NCBI RefSeq assembly: GCF_033547095.1
Contig: NZ_CP137852.1
Coordinates: forward strand, 3,093,501 to 3,157,500
Direction: 5' to 3'
DNA: 64,000 nt
Source: Sediminicoccus rosea
Lineage (GTDB): Bacteria > Pseudomonadota > Alphaproteobacteria > Acetobacterales > Acetobacteraceae
Shown: positions 22,407 through 38,658 of the stretch, piece by piece
Layout: every line of letters starts with the position of its first letter
Position numbering within the stretch: position 1 is the first letter of the stretch
The notes under the pieces: model-generated
Told to the model about the DNA's origin: nothing
Database searches by the model: none
The model's input: the letters and a program-made list of their open reading frames with translations, nothing else
Translations under genes and position numbers: made by a program

Positions 22407-23384
22407 TCAGCCCGTCACCATCGCGATCTTCCCGAAATGCGCATTCGCTTTCATATGCGCCAGCGCGTCATGCACCTCGTCCAGGTGGAAGACGCGATCC
22501 AGCGGCAGCGCCAGCTTGCCCGCCTCCAGCGCCGCCCAGAGGTCCTGCCGCATGAGGCGGACGATCTCCCGCACCTCCTCGTTGCTGCGGGTGCGGAAGG
22601 TGACGCCGATATAGGAAATGCGGCGCGCGGCATGCAGGTCGAAGTCGAAGTCCGCGACGGCGCCGCCCAGGCGGCCCACATTGATGATCCGGCCCAGGAT
22701 GCGCGTCGCCGCCAGCGTCTGCGAGACCAGCGGGCCGCTGATCTGGTCCACCACGGAATCCACGCCGCGGCCGCCCGTCGCGTCCAGCACCTGCTTCACC
22801 CAGGCGGGGTCGTTCGTGTCCACCGCCAGCGTCGCGCCGAACTCGCCGAGGCGCGCGCGCTTCTCGGGATTGGTCGAGCTGCCGACGATGACGGAGGCGC
22901 CCATGAGGCGCGCGATCTGCAGGCCCATCAGGCCGACGCCCGAGGAGGCGCCCTGGATCATGATGGCCGAGCCCGGGCCGCACAGCCCGTGCGTGACGAC
23001 CGCATTGTGCATGGTCTGCAGCGCGACCGGCAGCGTCGCCGCCACTTCCCAGGGCATGTTGGTGTCGGGCACCAGGTTCACGCGCCCCCAATCGGCGACG
23101 GCGTATTCGGCGTAGCAGGCGCCCATGCCGCCCATGACGCGCATGCCGGGCTTGAGATGCGCAGGCACCGCGCTGCCGCATTCGACGATCTCGCCGGCCG
23201 CCTCCAGGCCCGGGATGGCGCCGATGCCGCCCACCGCGCCATGCGCGTGGCCGGCCGCCACGCCGAGATCGGCGCGGTTCAGGCCAATGGCGCGCAGCTT
23301 GATGAGGATCTGCTCCGGCCCGGGCTTGGGCACGGGGACCTCCTGCAGCTTCAGGCCTTCTGCGGTGACGATGGCGGCTTTCAT
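22407..23384 (-). CDS. Zinc-type alcohol dehydrogenase-like / quinone oxidoreductase
   Basis: The 325-aa medium-chain reductase has an N-terminal GroES-like domain (IGLNRADLGVAAGHAHG, GLEAAGEIVECG) and a Rossmann domain with MIQGASSGVGLMGLQIARLMGA at about 138-159 for NAD(P)H. It lacks the structural-zinc cysteine cluster, as expected of quinone-oxidoreductase-type members. The ATG at 23384 with GGGAG upstream is chosen over a longer frame. It lies 60 bp downstream of the GntR gene on the same strand and may belong to the same transcription unit as the GntR and ThDP genes. Substrate unknown. Confidence 0.87.
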   Translation of the reverse strand: MKAAIVTAEGLKLQEVPVPKPGPEQILIKLRAIGLNRADLGVAAGHAHGAVGGIGAIPGLEAAGEIVECGSAVPAHLKPGMRVMGGMGACYAEYAVADWGRVNLVPDTNMPWEVAATLPVALQTMHNAVVTHGLCGPGSAIMIQGASSGVGLMGLQIARLMGASVIVGSSTNPEKRARLGEFGATLAVDTNDPAWVKQVLDATGGRGVDSVVDQISGPLVSQTLAATRILGRIINVGRLGGAVADFDFDLHAARRISYIGVTFRTRSNEEVREIVRLMRQDLWAALEAGKLALPLDRVFHLDEVHDALAHMKANAHFGKIAMVTG

Positions 23385-23444
23385 GGCGGGCTCCCTGGGA
23401 TTCGGCGCGGAGGCTAATCCCAAACCGCGCGTGGAACGAGAGGG

Positions 23445-24167
23445 CTAGCGGAGCTCGATCGCGTAGCGCAGCGCGCCGGTCTCGATCCAGGAGAGGCGGC
23501 GCTCCACCGGGCGGTCCATCACGTCATACGCGACGCGTGCGATGTGCATCACCGGCGCATCGGCAGCGAGGCCGAGCAGCGCCGCCACATCGGCGGGCGC
23601 GCCGATGGCGGCGAGCTTCTCGGTCACGCGCATCACCGTGATGCCGTGGTGGCGCTGGTAATGGACATAGAGCTCATCGCTGAGTTCGACACCGATGGGC
23701 AGCGTGAAGCCGGGAAACAGCGCCTCTGGCAGCGCGATCTCCTCCACGATGGGCGAGCTGCGGCCGAGGAAGCGCTGGCGCGTGAAGCGGTGCACCCGCG
23801 CACGGCGCGGCAGCGCGAGCGCGCGGGCTTCGTCGGGTGTGGCCGGGGCACGCTCCAGCCGGTGCAGGCGGCTGGTGGGGGTGAGGCGCCCGCCATCCAG
23901 CGCCTCGGCGCGGAAGAAGTGAAAGAGCGCGCGCTCGCTCGTCGCCTGGGTCACATAGGTGCCGATGCCCTGGCGGCGCTCGATCAGCCGCTGCGCCTCC
24001 AGCACGCCGAGTGCCCGGCGCAGCGTGCCCTGGCTGATGCCGAGCTGCGCGGCGAGCGCACCCTCGGTCGGCAGCGCCTCGCCCGGCTTCCATTCACCGG
24101 CCGCGATGCGCGCGCGCAGCTCCTGCTCGGCGCGTGCGTAAAGGGGCGCGCGCGCCAGTGTTGTCAT
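23445..24167 (-). CDS. GntR family transcriptional regulator (HutC subfamily)
   Basis: The 240-aa one-component regulator has an N-terminal winged HTH (about 8-72: YARAEQELRARIAAGEW, PTEGALAAQLGISQGTLRRAL, RRQGIGTYV) and a UTRA-type ligand domain (about 95-235) ending in a beta-rich SWIETGALRYAIELR. HutC-type GntR proteins respond to small organic acids or phosphorylated sugars. Its start overlaps the end of the ThDP enzyme gene by 4 bp, so it is translated in the same unit. The palindrome at 25821-25843 in the divergent promoter is the obvious candidate binding site. Confidence 0.88.
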   Translation of the reverse strand: MTTLARAPLYARAEQELRARIAAGEWKPGEALPTEGALAAQLGISQGTLRRALGVLEAQRLIERRQGIGTYVTQATSERALFHFFRAEALDGGRLTPTSRLHRLERAPATPDEARALALPRRARVHRFTRQRFLGRSSPIVEEIALPEALFPGFTLPIGVELSDELYVHYQRHHGITVMRVTEKLAAIGAPADVAALLGLAADAPVMHIARVAYDVMDRPVERRLSWIETGALRYAIELR

Positions 24168-25786
24168 GCGCGGCGGAGATTGGGGGCCGGCAGGCCCTCG
24201 ATCAGCACGTTCACGCAGGCGGGCTTGCCGCTGGCGAAGGCGCGCTCGAGGGCGGGGGCAAGATCCTCGCCGCGCTCGACGAATTCGCCATGGCCGCCAA
24301 GGCCGCTCACCACCAGGTCATAGCGCGTGCCGGGCGCGAGCTCGCAGCCATGGGTGCGGTTGGCGCCGTAGTCGCGCGCCTGGATCTGGTATTCGGCGTT
24401 CCACTTCGCGTCATTGCCGACGACCAGCACGAATGGCAGGTCATGGCGCAGCGCGGTGTCGAATTCGGCCATGTGGAAGCCGAAGGTGCCATCGCCGCAG
24501 ATGGCGAGCACACGACCCGCCGGGCGCGCGGCACGGGCGGCCGCGGCGAAGGGAAGGGCCGCGCCGATCGCACCGGCGACACCATTGATCACGCGCTCGG
24601 GCGCCGAAAGGCAGGCCTGCATCCATTGGCCGATCTCGCCGCCATCCACCACCAGCACCGTGTCCGCGGTGATGAAGGGGCGGAGCGCCGCGCCCAGCGT
24701 CGCCGGATGCACGGGGCCCCCCGGCTTGCCGGCCAGCGCTTCCCAGGCCTTGGGGCGATGCGCGATGGCCTCACCGAGGGCGGCAGCCCAGCCGGTGTTG
24801 GCATGCGGCCTCGCATGCGCGGCCAGCATGGCCATCGCCTCCAGCGGCGCGGCCATGGCGGAGAGCGCGAGGCGCCCACCCAGCCCTTGCGCGGCGCGCG
24901 CCATGAGCTTCGCGTCGGGCTCGATCACCACCCAGCGCGCGGTCTCGCTCACGAAGGGCACGCGGCCGAAGCGCAGCGTGAAGTCGAGCGGCTTGCCCAG
25001 CAGCACCACGCAATCGGATTGCGCCAGCATCTCGGCGAAGGCGCCGAGCGAGGGGTCGCCCAGGCCGCGCGGGCTTTCCATCAGGGCGATGGGCAGGCCG
25101 AGCGCGGCCTCCAGGGCTGCGCGGGCGCGCCGGCCATCGGGCGTGTTCAGCGCGGGCCCTGCGGCGAGGAGCGGACGCTCCGCGCCCGCGATCGCAGCGA
25201 GGATGGCGGCCGCGCTCTCGGCAGCGAGCGGCATGGGTGCCGCGAGGTAGGCGGCTTCCTGCGGGAGCTTCGGCGTGGCCTTGGCCTCCACCACGTCGGT
25301 CGGCAGGGAGATGTGCACGGGACCGGGGCGGCCGCTGCGCGCGATGGAGAAGCCGCGCGCAATGTCATCGGCAAGGCCCGCCGTGCTCTGGGCGAGCCAG
25401 GCGGCCTTGCACAGCGGGGCCGCCATCTCGACCTGCGGCGTTTCCTGGAAGGCGCCGAGGCCCAGCTCGTTCAGTGGCGCATGGCCCGAGAGCAGCAGGA
25501 TCGGCACCTCGCCCGCCAGCGCGGTCGGCAGGCCGGCCACGGCGTTGGAATGCCCCTGCCCGCCGGTCACCAGCGCGACACCGACCTCGCCCGTCAGCCG
25601 CGCCCAGGCATCGGCCATGTGCACGGCCGCCGCCTCGTGCCGGACGTGGATGATCTCGATGCCCTCGCCGAAGGCCGCGTCATAGACCGGCATGATGTGG
25701 TTGCCCGAGAGGCTGAAGACGCGCGTGACGCCGCCCTTCTTCAAGGCGCCCCAGAGGATGTCGGCGCCGCGGATCTCGTGCTGCAT
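24164..25786 (-). CDS. Thiamine diphosphate-dependent enzyme (acetolactate synthase-like)
   Basis: This 540-aa enzyme has the three ThDP-family domains in order. The N-terminal PYR domain has the cofactor-activating Glu51 in VRHEAAAVHMADA; the middle domain covers about 190-330; the C-terminal PP domain has the Mg/ThDP motif GDGTFGFHMAEFDTALRH with a later GNDAKWN near 430-465. Relatives include acetolactate synthase, oxalyl-CoA decarboxylase and various 2-oxoacid decarboxylases; specificity is not readable. No regulatory subunit gene is adjacent, against biosynthetic AHAS. The ATG at 25786 with a GGAG ribosome site is chosen. It diverges from the SDH-like operon across a palindrome and is translationally coupled to gntR. 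Confidence 0.85.
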   Translation of the reverse strand: MQHEIRGADILWGALKKGGVTRVFSLSGNHIMPVYDAAFGEGIEIIHVRHEAAAVHMADAWARLTGEVGVALVTGGQGHSNAVAGLPTALAGEVPILLLSGHAPLNELGLGAFQETPQVEMAAPLCKAAWLAQSTAGLADDIARGFSIARSGRPGPVHISLPTDVVEAKATPKLPQEAAYLAAPMPLAAESAAAILAAIAGAERPLLAAGPALNTPDGRRARAALEAALGLPIALMESPRGLGDPSLGAFAEMLAQSDCVVLLGKPLDFTLRFGRVPFVSETARWVVIEPDAKLMARAAQGLGGRLALSAMAAPLEAMAMLAAHARPHANTGWAAALGEAIAHRPKAWEALAGKPGGPVHPATLGAALRPFITADTVLVVDGGEIGQWMQACLSAPERVINGVAGAIGAALPFAAAARAARPAGRVLAICGDGTFGFHMAEFDTALRHDLPFVLVVGNDAKWNAEYQIQARDYGANRTHGCELAPGTRYDLVVSGLGGHGEFVERGEDLAPALERAFASGKPACVNVLIEGLPAPNLRRA

Positions 25787-25820
25787 GATGCGTCTCCTGC
25801 CCTTTCGGCCAGCTTGCACA

Positions 25821-25843
25821 GGTCTTGTGTCTTATACAAGACC
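25821..25843. promoter_or_regulatory. Palindromic operator between the ThDP gene and the SDH-like operon
   Basis: GGTCTTGT and ACAAGACC are perfect 8-bp arms separated by 7 nt (GTCTTAT). It lies in the 89-bp divergent intergenic region and overlaps a TTATAC element that could be a -10 box. Size and symmetry suit a GntR dimer, and a gntR gene is in the leftward unit. Confidence 0.6.
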
Positions 25844-25875
25844 GGGGCAGGATCGTGGCATCGGGAGGAACAGCG

Positions 25876-26607
25876 ATGGCCGATCTGAAGGTCCGCATCT
25901 GGCGCGGCGACGCCGAGGGCGGCGCATTCGCCGAATACGCGGTGCCCGCGCGCGAGAACCAGACCATCCTCGACGTGGTGACGCAGATCCAGCGCGAGCA
26001 GCAGCCGGACCTGGCCTATCGCTTCGCCTGCCGCGTCGGCATGTGCGGCTCCTGCGCGATGGAGGTGAATGGCCGCGCGCGCTGGACCTGCCGCACCCAT
26101 GTGAAGCGCGTGGCGAGCCCTGGCGAGACACTGGAGATCCGGCCACTGGCGAACCTGCCGGTGATCCGTGACCTCGCGACCGACATGGCGCCCTTCTTCG
26201 ACAAATGGGCGCGCGCCGGGGGCAAGTTCCAGCCGAAGGATGCAGCCGATGGCGCGGTGCCCGAGGAATTCGCCGTGGTGCCGCCGGCCTCCAAGAAGCG
26301 CCAGCAGGCGGATGCGGGCATCGAGTGCATCGGCTGCGGCGTCTGCTACGCCTCCTGCGACATCGTCGCCTGGAACCAGGACTATCTTGGCCCTGCCGCG
26401 ATGAACCGCGCCTGGACCCTGGTGAATGACGTGCGCGACGGCGGCAACAAGGAGCGCCTGGATGCGGTGAGCGGCGATGCCGGCTGCCATTCCTGCCACT
26501 CCACGCAATCCTGCACGGAACGCTGCCCGAAGAATCTCGACCCCTCCTCGGCCATCGCCGGGCTGAAGCGGACGATCTTCTGGGACAGCCTGCTGGGGCG
26601 GCGCTGA
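25876..26607 (+). CDS. Succinate dehydrogenase/fumarate reductase iron-sulfur subunit
   Basis: The 243-aa SdhB/FrdB-type subunit carries electrons between the flavoprotein and the membrane anchors. A plant-type 2Fe-2S domain has Cys52, Cys57, Cys60 and Cys72 (CRVGMCGSC...C). The C-terminal domain has Cys151, Cys154, Cys157 and Cys161 (CIGCGVCYAS) and Cys204, Cys207, Cys213 and Cys217 (CHSCHSTQSCTERCPK). This matches the standard three-cluster ligand layout. The ATG at 25876 follows a GGGAGG ribosome site. It is the first gene of a seven-gene operon with two anchors, a TauE exporter, a two-subunit hydro-lyase and the flavoprotein. Gene order differs from housekeeping sdhCDAB. Confidence 0.92.
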   Translation: MADLKVRIWRGDAEGGAFAEYAVPARENQTILDVVTQIQREQQPDLAYRFACRVGMCGSCAMEVNGRARWTCRTHVKRVASPGETLEIRPLANLPVIRDLATDMAPFFDKWARAGGKFQPKDAADGAVPEEFAVVPPASKKRQQADAGIECIGCGVCYASCDIVAWNQDYLGPAAMNRAWTLVNDVRDGGNKERLDAVSGDAGCHSCHSTQSCTERCPKNLDPSSAIAGLKRTIFWDSLLGRR

Positions 26608-26945
26608 TGCGCGCGGCGGGCACGCGGCTCTGGGCCATCCAACGCATCACGGCGGGCTTCCTCGGCCTCGCCGTCATCGTGCATCTGGTGACGATCATGC
26701 TGGCGATCCGGGGCGGCTTGTCGGCGGCCGAGATCCTGGCGCGGACGCGCGGCGCGGAGCTCTGGTTCGGCTTCTACGTCCTCTTCGCGCTGTGTGCCGG
26801 CCTGCATGGCGCGATCGGGCTGCGGAACATCGCGGGCGAGTGGCTGGGGCTGCGCGGCCGCGCGGTGGATGCGCTCTGGCTCGGCATCGGCCTGGTCACG
26901 GCGGGTTTCGGCATCCGCGCGGCCTGGGGGCTTTACCATGCCTGA
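26607..26945 (+). CDS. Membrane anchor subunit, SDH/FRD cytochrome b type (first)
   Basis: The 112-aa protein has three predicted helices: about 14-35 (AGFLGLAVIVHLVTIMLAIRGG), 50-72 (ELWFGFYVLFALCAGLHGAIGLR) and 85-108. His residues at VIVHLVT and GLHGAIGLRN are in positions used for heme b in SdhC-type anchors. It overlaps sdhB-like by 1 bp (TGATG) and the next gene by 8 bp, so all are tightly coupled. It would anchor the iron-sulfur and flavoprotein subunits and pass electrons to or from quinone. Confidence 0.75.
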   Translation: MRAAGTRLWAIQRITAGFLGLAVIVHLVTIMLAIRGGLSAAEILARTRGAELWFGFYVLFALCAGLHGAIGLRNIAGEWLGLRGRAVDALWLGIGLVTAGFGIRAAWGLYHA

Positions 26946-27273
26946 CCGCCGCCACCCGACCTATGTCGCCTTCGTGATCCACCGCGTCTCGGGCCTGCTT
27001 CTGGCGCTGTTCCTGCCGCTGCATTTCTGGGCGCTGGGCCAGGCCATCTCGGGCGAGGCGGCGCTGGAGGGCTTCCTGCGCTGGACCGACAATGCGCTGT
27101 TCAAGTTTGCCGAATGGGGCCTCGTCGTGCTGCTGGCCGTGCATCTCGCCGGTGGGCTGCGCGTGATGGCGCTGGAATTCCTCGGCTGGCGGGCGCGGCA
27201 GAAGGACATGGTGGCGGCCTCGGCCGGTGTCGCCATCGCCGCCGGCATCCTGTTCCTGCTCAATGTGGGCTGA
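26938..27273 (+). CDS. Membrane anchor subunit, SDH/FRD cytochrome b type (second)
   Basis: This 111-aa second anchor has helices at about 10-33 (VAFVIHRVSGLLLALFLPLHFWAL), 55-80 (KFAEWGLVVLLAVHLAGGLRVMALEF) and 90-110. The HRVSG motif in helix 1 matches SdhC quinone/heme-site motifs (H-R-x-S-G), and H-x-x-G-G-L-R in helix 2 matches the second heme ligand region. It starts at ATG 26938, inside the end of the preceding gene. With that gene it forms a two-anchor, probably heme-containing membrane part of the complex. Confidence 0.78.
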   Translation: MPDRRHPTYVAFVIHRVSGLLLALFLPLHFWALGQAISGEAALEGFLRWTDNALFKFAEWGLVVLLAVHLAGGLRVMALEFLGWRARQKDMVAASAGVAIAAGILFLLNVG

Positions 27274-28054
27274 GGCGCTCCTTATCTCGGCGGGCAGCCT
27301 GCTCGCCGCCTTCTGCGCCAGCATCGCGGGCTTCGCCTTCGTGCTGGTGGGTGCGGCCGTGCTGCTCCAATTCATGGCCCCCGCGCTGGTGGCGCCGGTG
27401 CTGGTGATGGGCAGCCTGATCGTGCAGGGCATCGGCACCTGGGCAGTGCGCGACCACATCCCCTGGCAGCGGCTGTGGCTCTATGTCGGCACCGCCACGC
27501 TCGGCCTGCCGATGGGCCTCGCCATTCTTGCGCTGGGCCCGGCGCGGGCCATCGTGGCCGGCGTCGGCGCGCTGCTCGTGCTCTATGCCGGCTACACGCT
27601 GGCACGCATCGCGGTGCTGCGGCTCGCCCTCGGCTCGGGCCTGCCGGCCAATCCGGCGCTCGCCCGCCTCGCCCTGCGGCTCAAGGCGCCGGGTGCGCGC
27701 GCTACGCCACGGAGCGACGCGGCGATCGGCTTCGCCTCGGGCATCCTGGGCGGCATCGGCGGCTATGTGGGCGCGCTGGTCGGCATGTGGGCCGACATGC
27801 AGGGCATGCCGCCGCAGGACACCCGGGCGCTGATGCAGCCCTTCATCGCCATCATGCAGGCGCTGACCGTCATCGGCCTCGCCTTCACCGGTTTCTTCAC
27901 GCCCGAGGCGATGCTGCTCACCGCCACCGCCGTCCCTGCCCTGCTGCTCGGCACCTGGGCCGGCCAGCGCGCAGGCAGGCGCCTGCCGGCGCAAGGCTTC
28001 CGCCTGGTGCTGCTCAGCCTGCTGCTCGTCTCCGGTCTCTCCCTTCTCCTCTGA
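27263..28054 (+). CDS. TauE/SafE family anion exporter
   Basis: The 263-aa membrane protein has about eight helices in two similar halves: N-terminal GSLLAAFCASIAGFAFVLVGAAVLL and, after a cytoplasmic loop (about 125-155), GFASGILGGIGGYVGALVGMW. This is the typical TauE/SafE/YfcA duplication. Characterised relatives export sulfite, sulfoacetate or other anions formed in catabolism. It overlaps the second anchor gene by 11 bp and precedes the hydro-lyase genes, so it is built into the operon. Its presence suggests that the pathway releases an anion to be removed, possibly sulfite; this is inference. Confidence 0.82.
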   Translation: MWAEALLISAGSLLAAFCASIAGFAFVLVGAAVLLQFMAPALVAPVLVMGSLIVQGIGTWAVRDHIPWQRLWLYVGTATLGLPMGLAILALGPARAIVAGVGALLVLYAGYTLARIAVLRLALGSGLPANPALARLALRLKAPGARATPRSDAAIGFASGILGGIGGYVGALVGMWADMQGMPPQDTRALMQPFIAIMQALTVIGLAFTGFFTPEAMLLTATAVPALLLGTWAGQRAGRRLPAQGFRLVLLSLLLVSGLSLLL

Positions 28055-28063
28055 GGAAACGCC

Positions 28064-28966
28064 ATGTCCGTCATCCCCCCGCCCGAGAAGCTGCGCGTGA
28101 CCCCGGACGCGATCGAGGAAGCGGCCAAGCTCCTCTACATCCGCGCGCTGAAGATCCTGCCCGACGACATCAAGCAGGGCTTCTTCCGCCTGGATGCGAG
28201 CGAGACGGACGGCCTCGCGCGCTCCGTCCTCGCCACGATGATCGAGAACATCGCCGTCGCTGAGCGCACCGAGAACCTGCTCTGCCAGGACACCGGCATC
28301 CCCATCTTCAACGTGCAGATCGGCCGCGACGTGGAGCTGGATGGCTGGGCGCTGAAGCAGGCCATCGCGCGCGGCACCGAGCGCGCGACGCGCGAGCACC
28401 CGCTGCGCAGTTCCGTGGTGCATCCCATCACGCGGGTGAACGCGCACACCTCCTGCGGGGCGCATGTGCCCGTCATCAACATTGATTTCGTGGAGACGCC
28501 GCGCACCCTGCGCCTCGAGATGATCCCGAAGGGCAGTGGCTCGGAGAACGGGTCCTTCCTGCAGATGCTGATCCCGGCGGATGGCCTCGCGGGCGTGAAG
28601 CGCTTCGTGGTGGATGCGGCGATCAAGGCGGGCGGCAAGGTCTGCCCGCCGACCATCCTGGGCGTGGGCGTGGGGGGCACGAGCGACCTGTGCATGCATC
28701 TCGCCAAGGTGGCGGCGACGCGGCCCCTCGGCTCGGTCTGCGCGGATGCGGAGGGGGCGAAGCTGGAGGTGGAGCTGAGCGAGGCGGTGAACTCGCTCGG
28801 CATCGGGCCGCAGGGGTTGGGCGGGGACAGCACCGCCTTCGCCGTGCATGTCGAGGTGGCGGCCACGCACATCACGATGAACCCGGTGGCGGTGAATGTG
28901 CAGTGCCATTCGGCGCGGCGCGCGAGCGCCACCTTCACGCCCGAGGGCGTGGTGATCGGATTCTAG
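28064..28966 (+). CDS. Class I fumarase/tartrate dehydratase family, alpha subunit
   Basis: The 300-aa catalytic-cluster subunit of a two-chain, 4Fe-4S hydro-lyase. Likely cluster ligands are Cys74 (NLLCQDTGIP), Cys194 (GKVCPPTILG) and Cys281 (VQCHSARR). The substrate region RVNAHTSCGAHVPV and GVGVGGTSDLCMHLAK are conserved family motifs. Such heterodimers act as fumarase, L-tartrate dehydratase, mesaconase or related enzymes. Two complete fumarase genes of other types lie less than 10 kb downstream, which favours a specialised substrate here. The beta subunit follows after 11 nt. Confidence 0.88.
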   Translation: MSVIPPPEKLRVTPDAIEEAAKLLYIRALKILPDDIKQGFFRLDASETDGLARSVLATMIENIAVAERTENLLCQDTGIPIFNVQIGRDVELDGWALKQAIARGTERATREHPLRSSVVHPITRVNAHTSCGAHVPVINIDFVETPRTLRLEMIPKGSGSENGSFLQMLIPADGLAGVKRFVVDAAIKAGGKVCPPTILGVGVGGTSDLCMHLAKVAATRPLGSVCADAEGAKLEVELSEAVNSLGIGPQGLGGDSTAFAVHVEVAATHITMNPVAVNVQCHSARRASATFTPEGVVIGF

Positions 28967-28977
28967 GAGCGCGCATC

Positions 28978-29586
28978 ATGGCCCACCACGTCCTCCACAT
29001 GCCCTGCACCGAAGCCGACATCCGCAAGCTGCGCGCGGGCGATACGGTGACCTTGCAGGACACGCTCTTCGGCATCCGCGATGCGACGCAGATCCACATG
29101 TTCGACCGCGGCCGCCGCACGCGGTTCGACCTCAACGGCCATGCGGTGATCCACACCGCGCCGAACGTCCGCAAGGTGGACCCCTCCGGCACCAACCAGG
29201 CGGGCTATGAGGCCGTGTGCATCGGCACCACGACGAGCGACCGCATGGAGCGCTTCACGCGCCCGCTGATGGAGCGCGAGGGGGTCCGGATCATCATCGG
29301 CAAGGGCGGGCTGCGCGAGGAATCCGCGAAGGCCTTCCAGGAACTGGGCGGATGCTACCTCGCCGTCATCGGGGGGGCCGCGGCGCTGGAGACCACCTGG
29401 ATCGCCGCCATCGAGGATGTGGACATGGATGACCTGAATCCCGAGAGCCTCTGGCGCTTCGCCATCAAGGATTTCGGGCCGCTCATCGTCGGCATGGACA
29501 GCCATGGCGGCAGCCTCTACCGCGACGTGCAGGCCAGCGTGGAAGCGCGGCGCGCCGCCGTCCTCGCCAAGCTCGGAGCCGGCTGA
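28978..29586 (+). CDS. Class I fumarase/tartrate dehydratase family, beta subunit
   Basis: The 202-aa partner of the alpha subunit has the swivelling C-terminal fumarase domain: LRAGDTVTLQDTLFGIRDATQIHMFD (about 18-43), GPNVRKVDPSG-like APNVRKVDPSGTNQAG, SDRMERF, IGKGGLREESAKAFQELGGCYLAVIGGAAAL and a final DFGPLIVGMDSHGGSLY. The HTAP and KGG motifs contribute to the active site in known structures. It ends one base into the flavoprotein start (TGATG), giving tight coupling. Substrate as for the alpha subunit. Confidence 0.88.
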   Translation: MAHHVLHMPCTEADIRKLRAGDTVTLQDTLFGIRDATQIHMFDRGRRTRFDLNGHAVIHTAPNVRKVDPSGTNQAGYEAVCIGTTTSDRMERFTRPLMEREGVRIIIGKGGLREESAKAFQELGGCYLAVIGGAAALETTWIAAIEDVDMDDLNPESLWRFAIKDFGPLIVGMDSHGGSLYRDVQASVEARRAAVLAKLGAG

Positions 29587-31310
29587 TGGACCGCATCACG
29601 ACCGACATCCTGGTGCTGGGCTCCGGCGGCGCCGGGCTGCTCGCGGCACTCCACGCCAAGTCCGCCAACCCCGAGCTCCGCGTCACCGTCGCGGTGAAGG
29701 GGCTGCTGGGGAAATCCGGCTGCACGCGCATGGTGCAGGGCGGCTACAATGTGGCCCTCGCCGCGGGGGATTCCGCGGAGCGCCATTTCATGGACACGCT
29801 GGATGGCGGGAAATGGCTGAATGACCAGGACCTGGCCTGGACGCTCGTCACCGTGGCGCAGCGCCGCATCCGTGAGCTGGAAAACCGTTGGGGCTGCTTC
29901 TTCGACCGCAACGCCGATGGCACCATCCACCAGAAGGCCTTCGCCGGGCAGACCTTCGACCGCACGGTCCACAAGGGCGACCTGACCGGCATCGAGATCA
30001 TCAACCGCCTCGCCGAGCAGACCTGGGCGCGCGGGATCGAGCGGCTGGAGGAACACCGCGCCGTCTCGCTCATCCGCTCGCGCGATGGATCGCGGCTTGC
30101 GGGCGTTCTGCTGCTGAACATCCGCCGGGGCGGCTTCGTCTTCGTGCAGGCCAAGGCGGTGCTGCTGGGCACCGGCGGCGGGCCCACCATGTACAAGTAT
30201 CACACGCCCTCGGGCGACAAGTCCTGCGACGGCATGGCGATGGCGCTGCGCGCGGGCCTCGCGCTGCGCGACATGGAGATGGTGCAGTTCCACCCGACCG
30301 GCGTGCTGGCCGGCCCCGGCACGCGGATGACAGGCACCATCATCGAGGAAGGGCTGCGCGGCGCCGGCGGCTATCTGCTGAATGGCGACGGCCAGCGCTT
30401 CATGCACAATTACGACCCGCGCGGCGAACGCGCCACGCGCGACATCGTCTCCCGCTCCATGGAGCGCGAGATCCAGGCGGGCCGCGTCAACGCCGAGGGC
30501 GGGCTCTGGATCGAGATGGGTCATCTTGGCCCCGCCAATGTGGCGAAGCAGTTCAAGGGCATGGTGGAACGCTGCGCCGATATGGGCTTCGACCTGGCCG
30601 GCGGGCGCGTGCCCGTGGTGCCGACGGCGCATTACATGATGGGCGGCGTGGTCTTCCGCGCCGATGGCAGCACCGAGCTGCCCGGCCTCTTCGCCGCGGG
30701 CGAGGACACGGGCGGCGTGCATGGCGCGAACCGCCTGGGCGGCAATGGGGTGGCCAATTCCACCGTCTTCGGCGGCATCGCGGGCGATGCGATGGCCGCC
30801 TGGGTGCCGAAGCACGGCGCGCTGGAAGCGCCTGACGAGGAGGCGCTGCGCGCAGCGCAGGATGCGGCGCTGGCCCCCTTCGGCAAGCCCGCTCGCCCGC
30901 TCAACCCTTTGCGCGACGCGCTGGCGGAACTCATGTGGGACAAGGCCGGCATCCTGCGCGATGCGAAGGGCCTGGCCGAGGCGGCATCGGGGCTCGATGC
31001 CATCGAGGCCGAGTTGCGCGCATCCGGCGTGAAGGATGGCGCGCGGGGCTTCAACCTCTCCTGGGCGGATTGGCTGAACCTGGAAAGCCTGGTGCTGACC
31101 AGCCGCGCCATCGTCGCCGCCGCCGAGGCGCGCTGCGAAAGCCGCGGCGCGCATTGGCGCGAGGATTTCCCGCAGACGGACGAGGATGCGAAGGGCCTGA
31201 GCCACACGGTCGTGACGCTGGAGGCGGGCCGCGTGAAGCTCGACTGGCGCGCGGTGCAATTCACGCGCCTCAAGCCCGGCGAGAGCCTGCTGGCAGCCGC
31301 CGCGGAGTAG
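29586..31310 (+). CDS. SDH/FRD-type flavoprotein subunit lacking the covalent-FAD histidine
   Basis: The 574-aa flavoprotein has an FAD Rossmann motif GSGGAG (12-17), QFHPTGV with His236, RATRDIVSRSM with the catalytic Arg region, PTAHYMMGGV and GEDTGGVHGANRLGGNG. In succinate dehydrogenase and fumarate reductase a His in the R-S-H-T-x-x-Q-G-G motif carries covalent FAD; the corresponding segment here is SGCTRMVQGG, with Cys46 in that place. The FAD is therefore probably non-covalent, as in aspartate oxidase and soluble fumarate reductases. It is last in the operon, whereas its iron-sulfur subunit is first. Substrate may be succinate, fumarate or a substituted analogue. Confidence 0.85.
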   Translation: MDRITTDILVLGSGGAGLLAALHAKSANPELRVTVAVKGLLGKSGCTRMVQGGYNVALAAGDSAERHFMDTLDGGKWLNDQDLAWTLVTVAQRRIRELENRWGCFFDRNADGTIHQKAFAGQTFDRTVHKGDLTGIEIINRLAEQTWARGIERLEEHRAVSLIRSRDGSRLAGVLLLNIRRGGFVFVQAKAVLLGTGGGPTMYKYHTPSGDKSCDGMAMALRAGLALRDMEMVQFHPTGVLAGPGTRMTGTIIEEGLRGAGGYLLNGDGQRFMHNYDPRGERATRDIVSRSMEREIQAGRVNAEGGLWIEMGHLGPANVAKQFKGMVERCADMGFDLAGGRVPVVPTAHYMMGGVVFRADGSTELPGLFAAGEDTGGVHGANRLGGNGVANSTVFGGIAGDAMAAWVPKHGALEAPDEEALRAAQDAALAPFGKPARPLNPLRDALAELMWDKAGILRDAKGLAEAASGLDAIEAELRASGVKDGARGFNLSWADWLNLESLVLTSRAIVAAAEARCESRGAHWREDFPQTDEDAKGLSHTVVTLEAGRVKLDWRAVQFTRLKPGESLLAAAAE

Positions 31311-31652: not shown

Positions 31653-31721
31653 GGCCCTCAGGATCCTGGCCGCTGCATGAGGTCCTTGAGGCCCTGGCCG
31701 CCGCCTGACGGCGCTCAGGCG
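31638..31721. repeat. Three imperfect 28-bp tandem repeats
   Basis: Units at 31638-31665, 31666-31693 and 31694-31721 each begin CTGGCCGC(C/T)GC. They span the last codons of the 99-aa gene, the whole gap and the last codons of the convergent oxyR gene. Confidence 0.55.
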
Positions 31722-32671
31722 CTCTCGCGCGCCCGCCCTCCGGGCTTGTGCACCTTCACCGCGCTCTGCTCGGCCAGGATCTCGCCGATGCTCTGGCGCA
31801 GCAGCCGGATGTCACGGATGCGGCCGAAGCTGGGGCGGTGGAACAGCGCCACGTCGCGCATGTGTTGCCCGCCCGCGATGCGCCGATAGGCCACCATGTC
31901 ATCCAGCAGCGCACCCACCTGGATGGCGAGCTGCGGCATGAAGGACACCCCGCTGCCGGCCGCGATCATCTGCCGCAGCGTCTCCAGGCTCGCCGCCTGC
32001 AATTCGGCCGAGCCCTCGCGCAGGCGCGACGGGCAGAGCTCCAGCGCCTGGTCGCGCAGGCAATGGCCCTCGGCCAGCAGGATCAGCTCCGGCACCGGGA
32101 TGTCGTCGGGGTTCACCGCCTCCACCTGGGCCAGCGGGTGGTCCCGCGGGACGGCCAGCGCCAGCTCCTCGCGGAAGAGCGGCAGCTCCACCAATTCGCT
32201 GTCGCCGATCGGGCTGGTGGCGAGCAGCGCGTCCAGCTCTCCCTCCTCCAGCTGGCGCACGAGCACGCGGGTGTGGCCCTCGGTCAGCAGCAGCTTCAGC
32301 TCCGGGTAGCGGGCGCGCAGCGGCTTGAGCAGGAAGGGCACGAGATAGGGGCCGAGGGTGGAAATCACGCCCAGGCGCAACGTGCCGGTCAGCGGCTCGG
32401 CGCCGATGCGCACCACCTCGAACAGGCGCCGCGCCTCGCTGATGATGCGCTTGGCCTGGGCCACCACCTCCTCGCCGCGGCGAGTCACCAGCACGCCGCG
32501 CGGGCTGCGCTCGAAGATCTCGACGCCCAGGAACTCCTCCAGCTTGCGCAACTGGCCGGAGAGTGTCGGCTGGCTGACACCGCAGGCCTGGGCGGCACGG
32601 CCGAAATGCAGGTGCTCGGCTACCGCCGTGATGTATTCCAGGTCGCGCAGGCTCAATCCGGCGAGGTTCAT
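31715..32671 (-). CDS. oxyR: Hydrogen peroxide-sensing LysR regulator OxyR
   Basis: The 318-aa LysR-type regulator has an N-terminal HTH (about 5-62, HFGRAAQACGVSQPTLSGQL) and a two-lobe sensor. The redox cysteines of OxyR are present in EGHCLRDQALELC (Cys204 and Cys213, matching Cys199 and Cys208 of E. coli), so the usual H2O2-driven disulfide switch is expected. The ATG at 32671 is chosen because the HTH then starts normally; upstream residues in the frame are non-homologous. It is divergent from the chromate transporter gene chrA and may regulate itself and perhaps chrA. Confidence 0.93.
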   Translation of the reverse strand: MNLAGLSLRDLEYITAVAEHLHFGRAAQACGVSQPTLSGQLRKLEEFLGVEIFERSPRGVLVTRRGEEVVAQAKRIISEARRLFEVVRIGAEPLTGTLRLGVISTLGPYLVPFLLKPLRARYPELKLLLTEGHTRVLVRQLEEGELDALLATSPIGDSELVELPLFREELALAVPRDHPLAQVEAVNPDDIPVPELILLAEGHCLRDQALELCPSRLREGSAELQAASLETLRQMIAAGSGVSFMPQLAIQVGALLDDMVAYRRIAGGQHMRDVALFHRPSFGRIRDIRLLRQSIGEILAEQSAVKVHKPGGRARESA

Positions 32672-32802
32672 GCGATTCCCCCAAGGGTGCTGGCCAGGGG
32701 CGCAGCATTCGCCAGGGAGGGCCGGGCCGCAAGTGCCGCTTGACGGGAGGGCCGCGCCGGGTGAGGCGTAACGCCCCGCCACCCGCCGACAGGACACCCC
32801 GC

Positions 32803-34101
32803 ATGAGCGCCTTGCCGAGCTTTTCCGAGGCGCTGCGCGTCTGGGCGCGGATCGGCTGCCTTTCCTTCGGCGGGCCCGCCGCGCAGATCGCGATGATGCA
32901 GCGCGAGGTGGTGGATGAGCGCCATTGGGTGAGCGACCGGCGATTCCTGCACGCGCTGAACTTCTGCATGCTGCTGCCGGGGCCGGAGGCCATGCAACTC
33001 GCCACCTATCTCGGCTGGCTGATGCACGGGGTGAAGGGCGGTATCGCGGCGGGCCTGCTCTTCGTGCTGCCGGGGGCGCTGGTGATGCTGGCGCTCTCCT
33101 TCATCTACGCCATCCTGGGTGACGTGCCGCTGATCGCGGGCCTGTTCTTCGGGCTGAAATGCGCGGTGCTGATCCTGGTCGTGGAGGCGCTGATCAAGGT
33201 GGCGAAGCGCGCGCTGAAGGGCGCCCTGCCCTGGGCGCTGGCCATCGCGGCCTTCCTCGCCCTCTTCGTGCTGGCGCTGCCCTTCCCCGTCGTCGTGCTG
33301 GCGGCCGCCGCCATCGGCTATGCCCTGCCCCAGGCCTTCGCGGCCGGCGTGCATGGCAAGCCGCGCGAGGGCGGGCCGGCCGCGCTCGATGCGGCGCTGG
33401 CCGCGGATCCGGGCCGCATCGCCGCCATGGCGCCGCTGGCGCGCCGGGCGGGGCTGGTGGCGCTGGCCCTCTGGCTCTGGCCGGTCGCACTTCTCATGCC
33501 GGTGGGCGGCGTCTTCGCCGATATCGGCTGGTTCTTCTCGAAGATGGCGGTGGTCACCTTCGGTGGCGCCTATGCGGTGCTCGCCTATGTGGCGCAGGAG
33601 GCGGTGGAGCATTACCGCTGGCTCTCGGCCCCCGAGATGCTGGCGGGCCTCGGCCTTGCCGAGACCACGCCGGGGCCGCTCATCCTCGTGCTGCAATTCG
33701 TGGGCTTTCTCGCCGGCTGGCGGGATTCGGGCGCGCTGGGCGCCGTGGCGGGGGCCGGGCTCACGCTCTGGGTGACCTTCCTGCCCTGCTTCGCCTGGAT
33801 CTTCCTGGGCGCGCCCTATATCGAGAAGCTGCATGACATGGCGCGCCTCAAGGGCGCGCTGGCGGGGGTGACCGCGGCCGTCGTGGGCGTCATTGCCAAC
33901 CTGGCGCTCTGGTTCTCGCTGCGTGTTCTCTTCGCGCGGATGGAGGGCATCTGGCCCGACCCTTGGAGCCTTCAGCCGGCGGCGCTGCTGCTCACCGTGC
34001 TGGCGGGCATCTGCCTCTTCCGCCTCAAGCTCGGCGTGGTGACGGTGCTGGGGGTCACGGCGGGTGCGGGTCTGGTGCTGCGCCTGGTCGGGCTTGGCTG
34101 A
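32803..34101 (+). CDS. chrA: Chromate transporter ChrA (two-domain)
   Basis: The 432-aa inner-membrane protein has two homologous CHR domains. The N-terminal one carries CLSFGGPAAQIAMMQREVV (about 19-37) and LLPGPEAMQLATYLG. The C-terminal one (from about 210) carries KMAVVTFGGAYAVLAYVAQEAV and GLAETTPGPLILVLQFVGF. This is the standard bidomain form that effluxes chromate by the CHR-family mechanism. It diverges from oxyR, linking it to oxidative stress, since chromate reduction yields reactive oxygen. Its last 47 bp overlap a small convergent RHH gene. Confidence 0.92.
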   Translation: MSALPSFSEALRVWARIGCLSFGGPAAQIAMMQREVVDERHWVSDRRFLHALNFCMLLPGPEAMQLATYLGWLMHGVKGGIAAGLLFVLPGALVMLALSFIYAILGDVPLIAGLFFGLKCAVLILVVEALIKVAKRALKGALPWALAIAAFLALFVLALPFPVVVLAAAAIGYALPQAFAAGVHGKPREGGPAALDAALAADPGRIAAMAPLARRAGLVALALWLWPVALLMPVGGVFADIGWFFSKMAVVTFGGAYAVLAYVAQEAVEHYRWLSAPEMLAGLGLAETTPGPLILVLQFVGFLAGWRDSGALGAVAGAGLTLWVTFLPCFAWIFLGAPYIEKLHDMARLKGALAGVTAAVVGVIANLALWFSLRVLFARMEGIWPDPWSLQPAALLLTVLAGICLFRLKLGVVTVLGVTAGAGLVLRLVGLG

Positions 34102-36761: not shown

Positions 36762-37000
36762 GCGCAGCGCTCGGGGCGGTGCTTCCGCTCGGTGCTGGCC
36801 GGGTGCTTCGCCAGCATGGCGGGCGGGCGGATGGGCCGCGGCACGAGGTTGCCCTGGCAATTCGGGCACGTCATGCCGAGCTTGGTCTCGGCGCAGTCGC
36901 GGCACCAGGTGCACTCATAGGTGCAGATGAGGGCGAGCGGGCTCTCCGGTGGCAGGTCGCGATCGCAGCATTCGCAATTGGGCCGGAGGGCGAGCATCAT
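36758..37000 (-). CDS. DUF1272 family zinc-ribbon-like protein
   Basis: The 80-aa protein has the conserved Cys pattern of DUF1272: [29 protein letters not shown] and [17 protein letters not shown], eight or more cysteines that probably bind zinc in a treble-clef or RING-like fold. Function of the family is unknown. ATG 37000 overlaps the class I fumarase stop; ATG 36997 is an equally possible start. It is translationally coupled to its neighbours on both sides. Confidence 0.85.
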
Positions 37001-38658
37001 TCAAGCCCTTCGTAGAAGTCGTTGCCCTTGTCATCCACCACGATGAAGGCGGGGAAGTCTTCGACCTCGATCTTCCAGATCGCCTCCATGCCCAGCTCCG
37101 GATACTCCAGGACCTCGACCTTCTTGATGCAATCCTGCGCGAGCCGCGCGGCCGGGCCGCCGACGGAGCCCAGGTAGAAGCCACCATAGGTCTTGCAGGC
37201 GTTCAGGACGGCCTTGGAGCGGTTGCCCTTGGCGAGCATCACGAGGCTGCCGCCCGCCTTCTGGAAGGCCTCCACATAGCTGTCCATGCGGCCGGCCGTG
37301 GTGGGGCCGAAGCTGCCGGTCGCCATGCCGTCCGGCGTCTTGGCGGGGCCGGCGTAGTAGATCGGGTGGTCCTTGATGTATTGCGGCAGCCCCTGCCCCG
37401 CATCCAGCCGCTCCTGCAGCTTCGCATGCGCGATGTCGCGGCCCACCACGATGGTGCCAGTGAGCGAGACGCGGGTCTTCACGGGGTACTTCGTCAGCGT
37501 CGCGCGGATCTGGTCCATGGGCTGGTTGAGGTCGATCTTCACGACCTCGCCGCCCAGGATGTCATCCGTGTGTTCGGGCAGGTAATGCGCGGGGTCGGTC
37601 TCGAGCTGCTCGAGGAAGATGCCCTCCGGCGTGATCTTCGCCTTGATCTGGCGGTCCGCCGAGCAGGAGACGCCGATGCCGATGGGCAGCGAGGCGCCGT
37701 GCCGCGCCATGCGGATCACGCGCACATCGTGGCAGAAATACTTGCCGCCGAACTGCGCGCCGATGCCGAGATTCTGCGTGAGCTTGTGGATCTCGGCTTC
37801 CAGCTCATGGTCGCGGATGGCGTGGCCGGACTTGTCGCCGCGGCCAGGCAGCCCATCCAGCCACTTGGTGCTGCCGAGCTTCACCGCCTTCAGGTTCAGC
37901 TCCGCACTCGTGCCGCCGATGACGACCGAGAGGTGATAGGGCGGGCAGGCGGAGGTGCCGAGCGTCTTCACCTTCTCCTCGATGAAGGCGAGCAGCTTCT
38001 GCCTGTTCAGCACCGCGCGCGTCTGCTGATAGAGGAAGGTCTTGTTGGCCGAGCCGCCGCCCTTGAGGATGAACATCAGGTGGAACTCGTCGGCATGGTG
38101 CTCACCCGGGGCGGCCATGATGGAGAATTCCACCGGCATGTTGTTGCCGCTGTTCACCTCCTCATACATCGAGATCGGCGCCATCATCGAATAGCGCAGG
38201 TTGGTCTCGGTGTAGGTGCGCGCCACGCCGTAGCTCAGCGCCTCCTCCTCATCGCCCTCGACCCAGACGCGCTGGCCCTTCTTGCCGAAGACGATGGCGG
38301 TGCCGGTATCCTGGCACATGGGCAGCACGCCGCCCGCCGCGATGTTCGCGTTCTTCAGCAGGTCGAGCGCGACGAAGCGGTCATTCGCGCTCGCCTCGGG
38401 GTCCTTCAGGATATTGGCGAGCTGCTGGAGATGCGCGGGGCGCAGCAGGTGCGACACGTCATGGCAGGCCACGCGCGCCAGTTCCACCAGCGCCTCAGGC
38501 TTCACCTTGAGGACTTTCTTGCCCTCAACCTCGATGGTGGAGACGCCCGGGATATCCAGCTTGCGGTAGGGCGTCGTGTCCTCGGCCAGCGGGAACATGG
38601 TGCTGAAGGCGAAGCCCGGCGGGCGGGCGGGGGTGGCGTGATCAGCATCAAGCGGCAT
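36997..38658 (-). CDS. fumA: Class I fumarate hydratase (single chain, iron-sulfur)
   Basis: The 553-aa protein contains in one chain what the 28064-29586 pair encodes as two. The N-terminal part has the Cys in [10 protein letters not shown] (about 115), [22 protein letters not shown] and [15 protein letters not shown] as likely 4Fe-4S ligands. The C-terminal part has [34 protein letters not shown] and [30 protein letters not shown]. This is the housekeeping aerobic (oxygen-sensitive) form in many alphaproteobacteria. It is the first gene of a minus-strand operon that later includes fumC. Confidence 0.92.

Follow-up and report, generated by a model that had tools for sequence, protein, structure and literature searches.

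A block of genes at positions 24164-31310 of the stretch of Sediminicoccus rosea DNA analyzed here (64,000 nucleotides, G000:C1:3093501-3157500 of a 5.14 Mb genome, hereafter referred to as the window) probably encodes a pathway in which 3-sulfopropanoate is oxidized to sulfoacrylate, the latter is hydrated to sulfolactate, and sulfolactate is cleaved by the sulfolactate sulfo-lyase SuyAB to pyruvate and sulfite. The block consists of two divergent units joined by a palindrome, which encode a thiamine diphosphate (ThDP)-dependent enzyme, a GntR regulator, all subunits of a complex of the succinate dehydrogenase/fumarate reductase (SDH/FRD) type, a TauE-family exporter and the alpha and beta subunits of a fumarase-like hydro-lyase. 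This composition had been proposed by an initial annotation of the window, and every gene in it was confirmed by profile matches (Table 1). The span assigned to the block in that annotation encloses all of its other genes but leaves the GntR gene outside, apart from the 4 bases by which it overlaps the ThDP gene.

Support for the sulfonated substrate suggested in the initial annotation came from the surroundings of the flavoprotein in related loci, where SuyAB, SlcC or ComC, sulfonate-type transporters and sulfite exporters are encoded nearby. A scan of species genomes with the flavoprotein gave at least 565 matching stretches, of which the best 80 were kept (L025-L104, 67-95% identical; the rest do not necessarily belong to the same family), the closest relatives being those of Roseococcus and of an Acetobacteraceae metagenome-assembled genome (MAG) at 92-95% identity (L025-L027). 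The 20 loci of Acetobacteraceae type were considered separately from the other 60 kept loci. The block proved to be conserved in this genome-neighbourhood comparison: relatives of both hydro-lyase subunits (FumA and FumB) were present in all 20 Acetobacteraceae-type loci, and among the other 60, some of which lie on short contigs, FumA was found in 51 and FumB in 56; one locus with full flanks (L069) carries the flavoprotein without the rest of the block. When local relatives were scored within 10 kb of the flavoprotein, at identity cut-offs of 58% for SuyB, 45% for SlcC and 40% for ComC, the 60 loci beyond the Acetobacteraceae-type group yielded SuyB in 31 cases, SlcC in 16 and ComC in 29, with at least one of the three in 40. 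At four loci (L076, L080, L160 and L161) a run on one strand comprises SuyA, SuyB, the iron-sulfur (FeS) subunit, both membrane anchors, TauE, a sulfonate-type ABC transporter, FumA, FumB, the flavoprotein, SlcC and ComC, and in a gammaproteobacterial MAG (L076) and a Rhodospirillales MAG (L080) this whole single-strand set is contained inside 12 kb.

Among 72,556 plasmids searched, the top 18 records encode a flavoprotein that is 46-68% identical to that of the block (in one case across 66% of the length), the remaining records among the 40 matches listed being only 33-37% identical; by its sequence, the flavoprotein is a separate family. In Methylobacterium radiotolerans (L015) the block genes are accompanied by a UxaA-family pair and by genes for a carrier of dicarboxylate type and a hydroxyacid dehydrogenase; an Ldh-family enzyme is also encoded there, for which L-sulfolactate dehydrogenase was the top NCBIfam model, at a score below the cut-off (160.1 versus 500 bits). 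Other flavoprotein plasmids carry TauE, YeiH, sulfite oxidase, SorA and TTT or TRAP carriers; the SorA beside the block of M. nodulans scored 695.9 bits against a cut-off of 600, and the matches of transporter relatives in L015 and L018 to models of SsuA, SsuC and taurine ATPase did not reach the cut-offs. Judged from sequence and context, the UxaA-family pair is SuyAB. The SuyB family is represented by 13 plasmid records at 61-100% identity, with the next among the matches listed at no more than 39%, and is located near annotated hpsN/hpsO genes in Cupriavidus pinatubonensis, directly after hisD/SDR/ADH (HpsNOP-like) genes, as part of a SuyAB pair, in Rhodobacteraceae SC52, and, in Paracoccus versutus, at most 10 kb from HpsNOP-like genes that are accompanied by those for a sulfate exporter and a sulfite oxidase. 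The sections of PMC9594981 that were consulted describe SuyAB as members of PF04295 with SlcC and ComC as neighbours in Paracoccus. The present loci resemble the SuyAB-based sulfolactate catabolism of P. pantotrophus, C. pinatubonensis and C. salexigens in that SuyAB, SlcC, ComC, TauE and sulfite dehydrogenase occur in the same loci or genome; the inputs given for such systems in those sections are dihydroxypropanesulfonate (DHPS), sulfolactate and sulfosugars, by way of aldehydes and hydroxyacids, and no route that starts with a complex II-like enzyme followed by a hydratase is mentioned there (PMC9594981).

In the genome under study, a SuyB relative (67% identical) is encoded together with SuyA and an MFS carrier at approximately C1:249.6-253.1 kb (L119:8608-12129), in a unit divergent from a UTRA-type GntR gene and, in contig coordinates, about 2.9 Mb from the window; Xsc was not found in this genome at E 1e-200, and two SorA-like proteins scored under the cut-off (236.7 and 244.5 versus 600 bits). 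Among the genomes of loci without local SuyB, SlcC or ComC, SuyB was present elsewhere (E <1e-100) in 27 of the 30 tested, the misses being L043, L085 and L090; these 30 represent 40 such loci and comprise the 20 of Acetobacteraceae type and 10 with at least 6 kb on each side, 10 with shorter flanks having been left out. Among 241 evenly sampled alphaproteobacterial genomes, 18 encode the flavoprotein and 24 SuyB: 13 have both, five only the flavoprotein, 11 only SuyB and 212 neither. SuyB accordingly occurs in 13 of 18 flavoprotein genomes versus 11 of 223 others (one-sided Fisher test, ignoring phylogeny and genome size, p 1.6e-11, or 1.2e-10 without the own genome), while Xsc, used as a control, showed a weaker association (6 of 18 versus 23 of 223, p 0.012).

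The block would reproduce, with sulfonates, the steps of the tricarboxylic acid (TCA) cycle that lead from succinate through fumarate to malate, 3-sulfopropanoate being equivalent to succinate in which a sulfonate replaces one carboxylate. The membrane-bound complex II-like enzyme would convert 3-sulfopropanoate to sulfoacrylate, delivering electrons to quinone, after which the fumarase-like alpha and beta subunits would hydrate sulfoacrylate to sulfolactate. Our own derivation from the naming rules indicates that an addition like that yielding L-malate would give (R)-sulfolactate, the enantiomer named as the SuyAB substrate in the consulted part of PMC9594981, and SuyAB, encoded elsewhere in the genome, would then release pyruvate and sulfite, the latter leaving the cell through TauE, to which this role is assigned on account of its neighbours. 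The general scheme of the initial annotation, that is, oxidation followed by hydration with removal of a sulfur anion by TauE, agrees with the gene identities and the sulfonate neighbourhoods. Its substituted succinate was upheld as regards the sulfonate, while a substituted C4 succinate has become less likely, since the neighbouring SuyAB, SlcC, ComC, sulfonate-type ABC transporters, SorA and YeiH favour a C3 sulfonate, namely 3-sulfopropanoate. The substrate is the weakest link of this scheme and, like the intermediates, the regiochemistry of the hydratase and the export of sulfite, is something that we infer.

A flavoprotein with PF00890 and PF02910 domains that is encoded with an FeS subunit and membrane anchors places the complex in the complex II (SDH/FRD) superfamily, and like SdhCDAB and FrdABCD of Escherichia coli it has four subunits, FeS cysteine motifs, anchor histidines, the catalytic positions and the common fold. 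It differs from these complexes in that the flavoprotein shares approximately 30-35% identity with most of the SDH/FRD chains that match it best, in its gene order and in the sulfonate genes that adjoin its relatives; the flavoprotein scored 444 bits with TIGR01812 (the sdhA_frdA subfamily), under the cut-off of 567.3. Further differences are located in the active site, which was compared using the SdhA of the same genome and HMMER alignments, in a residue alignment of 103 sequences (the window, 10 plasmid loci, L025-L104 and L149-L160). None of the 103 deviates at the positions that correspond to the catalytic His, Glu, Arg, His and Arg of SDH, the roles in catalysis and carboxylate binding being those of the E. 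coli residues. In every sequence the His/Arg carboxylate site is also retained, the pocket Thr is replaced by Glu (Glu254), an inserted pocket loop carries a basic residue (Arg in 100, Lys in three), and the His that holds FAD covalently in SDH is replaced by Cys (Cys46). Heme-ligand-like His residues, identified by a loose pattern, are present in the SdhC-like anchor of 87 of 87 relatives and in the SdhD-like anchor of 81 of 85, and the FeS-subunit Cys motif patterns are kept in 83 of 85. Because the catalytic positions, heme histidines and FeS motifs are preserved while the pocket differs, the complex appears to be a functional, quinone-linked complex II whose substrate site is altered at one end. 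An AlphaFold2 (AF2) model built with 36 sequences (mean pLDDT 75.8) is unreliable at residues 40-63, 115-134, 244-246 and 378-387, and since these low-confidence segments form part of the active site, the pocket cannot be read from it. A Foldseek search with this model returned the SDH/FRD fold, with E. coli fumarate reductase (1kf6, E 3.9e-38) as the best match, while by sequence profile SDH structures (7d6v, 1nek) rank above FRD.

The hydro-lyase is similar to class I fumarase and to L-tartrate dehydratase (TtdAB type, PDB 7xky) in its alpha/beta subunits and in the three conserved Cys residues and KGSGSEN motif of alpha. Its alpha subunit exceeds the fumarate hydratase equivalog cut-off (NF004885, 303.2 versus 276 bits), unlike the beta subunit, which scored below the equivalog cut-offs for both enzymes (for fumarate hydratase, NF004708, 132 versus 269 bits), and a further difference is its linkage to sulfonate genes; the L-tartrate dehydratase equivalogs were missed by both subunits (TtdA, 179.4 versus 365 bits; TtdB, 145 versus 264 bits). 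Across the loci, the hydratase subunits fall into type I, to which those of the window belong (75 loci), and type II (17 loci), the alpha subunits being approximately 35% identical between types; type II was found with the same flavoprotein family at L016-L021, L024, L096, L149-L157, L163, L165 and L171. When 40 of the 75 alpha subunits of type I were compared with the full set of 17 from type II, the KGSGSEN motif was found to be retained in type I, while in type II two of its residues are missing and Ser-Glu is replaced. SuyB is encoded locally at 32 of the 75 type I loci and at none of the 17 type II loci; at the level of the genome, in the alphaproteobacterial draw, it accompanies type I in 7 of 7 and type II in 6 of 11. 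SlcC was found in 16 and ComC in 28 of the 75 type I loci, and TauE or YeiH in 44. A relative of methylmalonate-semialdehyde dehydrogenase (MMSDH), a type of enzyme expected to use malonate semialdehyde, is encoded by three type II plasmids (L016, L017 and L171) and by none of the 75 type I loci, and some type II loci carry YeiH. On the haloarchaeal plasmids L022 and L023, the flavoprotein, FeS subunit, TauE and a UxaA pair are joined by an ArgH-type lyase instead of FumAB, with no matching anchors, so that a different fold may take the place of the hydratase. The lyase of L023 exceeds the argH cut-off (323.3 versus 279.5 bits), XcbC of coenzyme M synthesis being its fourth-best model (256.9 versus 575 bits), and the UxaA pair shares no more than 33-43% identity with SuyAB; on account of these scores neither is an established sulfonate enzyme, and the haloarchaeal loci offer a weak hint of a sulfonate role.

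Several observations weigh against a 3-sulfopropanoate pathway. Neither the block of the window nor that of any of the 20 Acetobacteraceae-type loci contains SuyAB, and none of these 20 has SuyB, SlcC or ComC nearby; five of the 18 flavoprotein genomes, all with a type II hydratase, lack SuyB altogether; and the counts behind the Fisher tests carry no correction for phylogeny. Neither TauE nor YeiH was seen in 31 of the 75 type I loci in the stretch examined, some contigs being short, and no gene for making 3-sulfopropanoate was found to be consistently linked to the block. In the flavoprotein, the direction of the reaction is uncertain because the covalent-FAD His is replaced by Cys, and the Glu in place of Thr is no obvious sulfonate ligand. 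Urocanate reductase accommodates an imidazole instead of one carboxylate, and its greatest divergence from fumarate reductase lies in the helix that bears the imidazole-binding Asp, according to the consulted part of PMC7921117. Glu254 of the block would lie on the equivalent helix, a parallel that appears to mark a place where specificity can shift and not the group which is bound there. Finally, the ThDP gene is hard to fit into the proposed pathway, and the sole plasmid ThDP relative without the flavoprotein, that of V. paradoxus, has a TauD/TfdA-family dioxygenase beside it and otherwise no plain sulfonate gene.

The main rival substrate is sulfosuccinate, to which we assign a low probability and which would apply most to relatives with a type II hydratase. 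The flavoprotein would produce sulfofumarate, hydration at the sulfonated carbon would give an alpha-hydroxysulfonate, and this would collapse to oxaloacetate and sulfite, such that SDH, fumarase and TauE would suffice and a separate desulfonase would not be needed. This agrees with the TTT (tricarboxylate-type) carriers that adjoin 5 of 17 type II relatives and with the 3 of 11 type II genomes in the class draw that have neither SuyB nor Xsc. It would, however, render superfluous the SuyAB, and often SlcC or ComC, that accompany the type I hydratase, and the altered pocket corresponds to a carboxylate-binding position, yet sulfosuccinate keeps both carboxylates. The literature matches listed for sulfosuccinate included no pathway for its degradation. 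Mercaptosuccinate was set aside, as no neighbour supports it, though no search was aimed at its dioxygenase.

A sulfur-free dicarboxylate, such as methylsuccinate/mesaconate or tartrate, with TauE exporting another anion, would suit the family names and folds, which belong to dicarboxylate enzymes, and the alpha score above the NCBIfam fumarate hydratase cut-off; we nevertheless regard it as unlikely in view of the sulfonate neighbours across many lineages and because no gene for a CoA-dependent or citramalate lyase appeared among the scanned representatives of eight of the 26 recurrent neighbour clusters (these matched ChrA, ChrB, RecQ, a sulfatase, an FMN-dependent dehydrogenase, a TauD-family protein and another ThDP enzyme, with one lacking a match). 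In E. coli FrdA, loss of the covalent-FAD His lowers succinate oxidation, while such mutants keep fumarate reduction. The Cys of all 103 flavoproteins resembles this situation, and together with the fumarate reductase at the top of the fold matches it would fit an enzyme operating in reverse as an electron sink, in which sulfolactate is dehydrated to sulfoacrylate and the latter reduced to 3-sulfopropanoate. Consumption is instead suggested by the importers encoded nearby, by SuyAB and by the functions for oxidizing or exporting sulfite; the sequence profile puts SDH ahead of FRD, and many of the groups carrying the block are aerobic, which makes the reverse direction very unlikely. The full subunit set plus hydratase could finally be read as the SDH and fumarase of the TCA cycle or a back-up copy, which we consider the least probable of these readings. 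The initial annotation had made its proposal of a dedicated, regulated pathway outside the TCA cycle dependent on another SDH in the genome, and a canonical SdhA (797.4 versus a cut-off of 567.3 bits) and SdhB are indeed encoded at C1:4286495-4288648, while a full-length class I fumarase lies in the same window at 36997-38658 on the minus strand. Since canonical enzymes occur elsewhere, the TCA role was rejected; the flavoprotein score under the SDH cut-off and the block's own GntR gene and palindrome likewise argue for a dedicated pathway. An ORF from 34306 to approximately 35700 (minus strand) reads as FumC when judged by eye, and with the class I fumarase it lies within 8 kb of the block, so that three fumarase-type enzymes are clustered.

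With regard to the ThDP enzyme, relatives at 45% identity were found in 18 of 20 Acetobacteraceae-type loci and in 18 of the other 60, and among the plasmid records listed seven encode a full-length relative at 45% identity or more, six of them together with the flavoprotein, although the two genes are far apart on the P. seriniphilus plasmid. An identity as Xsc was rejected (TIGR03457, 164.3 versus 676.4 bits), as was that of a known acetolactate synthase, the protein being under the cut-offs of the 25 best models listed. The own genome yielded 19 ThDP matches, 11 of which were scanned besides the block's own. The enzyme possibly constitutes a branch that acts on sulfopyruvate or another 2-oxo sulfonate.

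If 3-sulfopropanoate is the substrate, a complex II would oxidize a sulfonate. According to the consulted parts of PMC9594981 and PMC11489063, 3-sulfopropanoate is a natural product: Enterococcus gilvus makes it from sulfoquinovose and dihydroxypropanesulfonate (gut bacteria have similar genes), Burkholderia sp. and C. necator H16 make it from homotaurine, and its degradation was called unreported or in need of study in these papers of 2022 and 2024. The latter cites a thesis by J. Mayer in which degradation of homotaurine and 3-sulfopropanoate was proposed in Roseovarius nubinhibens ISM; as presented in the citing passage, which gives no genes, the intermediates 3-sulfopropanoate, sulfoacrylate and sulfolactate are the same as those suggested here (PMC11489063). 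No assignment of genes to 3-sulfopropanoate or sulfoacrylate degradation was found in the consulted parts of the open-licence PMC literature (including PMC11489063, PMC12890257, PMC11659671 and PMC9594981), and a description may exist elsewhere. For Paracoccus wurundjeri grown on sulfofucose, the consulted part of PMC12421959 reports a cluster 3 (MDP0926751-0926761) with nine induced proteins, a TauE homologue included, which was read as possibly linked to the Krebs cycle. This cluster may be the present sulfonate unit, because its 11 consecutive tags with TauE as the seventh would fit the order FeS-D-C-flavoprotein-FumA-FumB-TauE-LysR-TctCBA, an order close to that of the Sulfitobacter THAF37 locus. 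The gene set is common to many of the 80 kept species contigs and to plasmids, and its flavoprotein was seen in 18 of the 241 alphaproteobacterial genomes, which makes these genes candidates for 3-sulfopropanoate degradation in the sulfur cycle and calls for caution with genes labelled succinate dehydrogenase or fumarate hydratase, as they may lie outside the TCA cycle. A broader picture, in which all parts would have to hold jointly and which we think rather unlikely, is that complex II, fumarase and the malate-dehydrogenase-like SlcC/ComC were jointly co-opted to mirror, with sulfonates, the TCA-cycle steps from succinate to oxaloacetate, feeding the respiratory chain from 3-sulfopropanoate, and that in relatives a type II hydratase adds water to the sulfonated carbon, sulfite leaving spontaneously to give malonate semialdehyde for the MMSDH of the three plasmids, and the ThDP enzyme decarboxylates a 2-oxo sulfonate with loss of sulfite.

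Control of the block would reside in the HutC-type GntR protein, acting on the palindrome and thereby on both divergent units, and the window holds both a protein with GntR helix-turn-helix and UTRA domains and a nearby palindrome with arms GGTCTTGT-N7-ACAAGACC, whose 21-base core occurs at a single place in the own genome. The protein misses the HutC equivalog cut-off (84.9 versus 220 bits). Among the Acetobacteraceae-type loci, 7 of the 10 that have a GntR gene locally contain the core CTTGT-N7-ACAAG and none of the 10 that lack this gene does, and one of the three GntR-bearing loci that miss the core (L034) stops there at a contig end. A different palindrome, CTGGACAGSCTGTCCAG, is found in 6 of the 10 loci without a local GntR gene and in 0 of the 10 with it. 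That the palindrome tracks the GntR gene across related loci supports the predicted pairing of regulator and operator.

The features of the block are compiled in Table 1. On the plus strand the gene order is FeS subunit, two anchors, TauE, alpha, beta and flavoprotein, with adjoining genes overlapping or almost abutting.

Table 1. Genes and predicted operator of the block (positions within the window)
Feature	Position	Strand	Evidence or context
GntR family, HutC-type (UTRA domain) regulator	23445-24167	-	PF00392 and PF07702, both above cut-off
ThDP-dependent enzyme, 2-hydroxyacyl-CoA lyase/acetolactate synthase superfamily	24164-25786	-	PF02776 and PF02775 above cut-off; PDB matches
Palindrome GGTCTTGTGTCTTATACAAGACC, probable GntR operator (predicted)	25821-25843		Between divergent units
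Complex II-type iron-sulfur subunit, 2Fe-2S/4Fe-4S/3Fe-4S Cys motifs	25876-26607	+	TIGR00384, 197.7 bits versus cut-off 88
Complex II-type membrane anchor, SdhD-like	26607-26945	+	PF01127 above cut-off
Complex II-type membrane anchor, SdhC-like (cytochrome b)	26938-27273	+	PF01127 above cut-off; TIGR02970, 58.4 versus 52.3 bits
TauE/SafE-family exporter, likely sulfite (from neighbours)	~27263-28054, start possibly 27227	+	PF01925, 76.6 versus 32.6 bits
Class I fumarase-type hydro-lyase alpha (type I); proposed sulfoacrylate hydratase	28064-28966	+	PF05681, 290 versus 25 bits; NF004885
Class I fumarase-type hydro-lyase beta	28978-29586	+	PF05683, 102.7 versus 22.2 bits; PDB 7xky_B, 5dni
SDH/FRD-type flavoprotein, distinct family; proposed 3-sulfopropanoate dehydrogenase	29586-31310	+	PF00890, 249.7 bits, and PF02910, 99.1 bits, both above cut-off

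Downstream of the GntR gene, a zinc-type quinone oxidoreductase-like gene (22407-23423, minus strand) was seen elsewhere only in the nearest loci (L025-L027). Directly 3' of the block lie a LysR regulator (31715-32797, minus strand) and a ChrA-type gene of the chromate transporter family (32740-34101, plus strand), the ChrA-type cluster being recurrent in 11 of 20 Acetobacteraceae-type loci. Among betaproteobacterial loci, L058, L062, L066, L068 and L072 contain varying sets of sulfatase-family, TauD-family and FMN-dependent 2-hydroxyacid dehydrogenase genes, which perhaps provide further organosulfur steps; L062 and L072, as well as L073, are environmental MAG contigs titled Bordetella parapertussis, titles which look doubtful. 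A Sulfitobacter sp. THAF37 gene annotated as 3-sulfinopropanoyl-CoA desulfinase (L020:24490-25662) and the flavoprotein gene are approximately 11 kb apart, and a relative of the former is found at the end of the stretch, at a similar distance of approximately 11 kb, in C. necator N-1 (L171:25349-25701).

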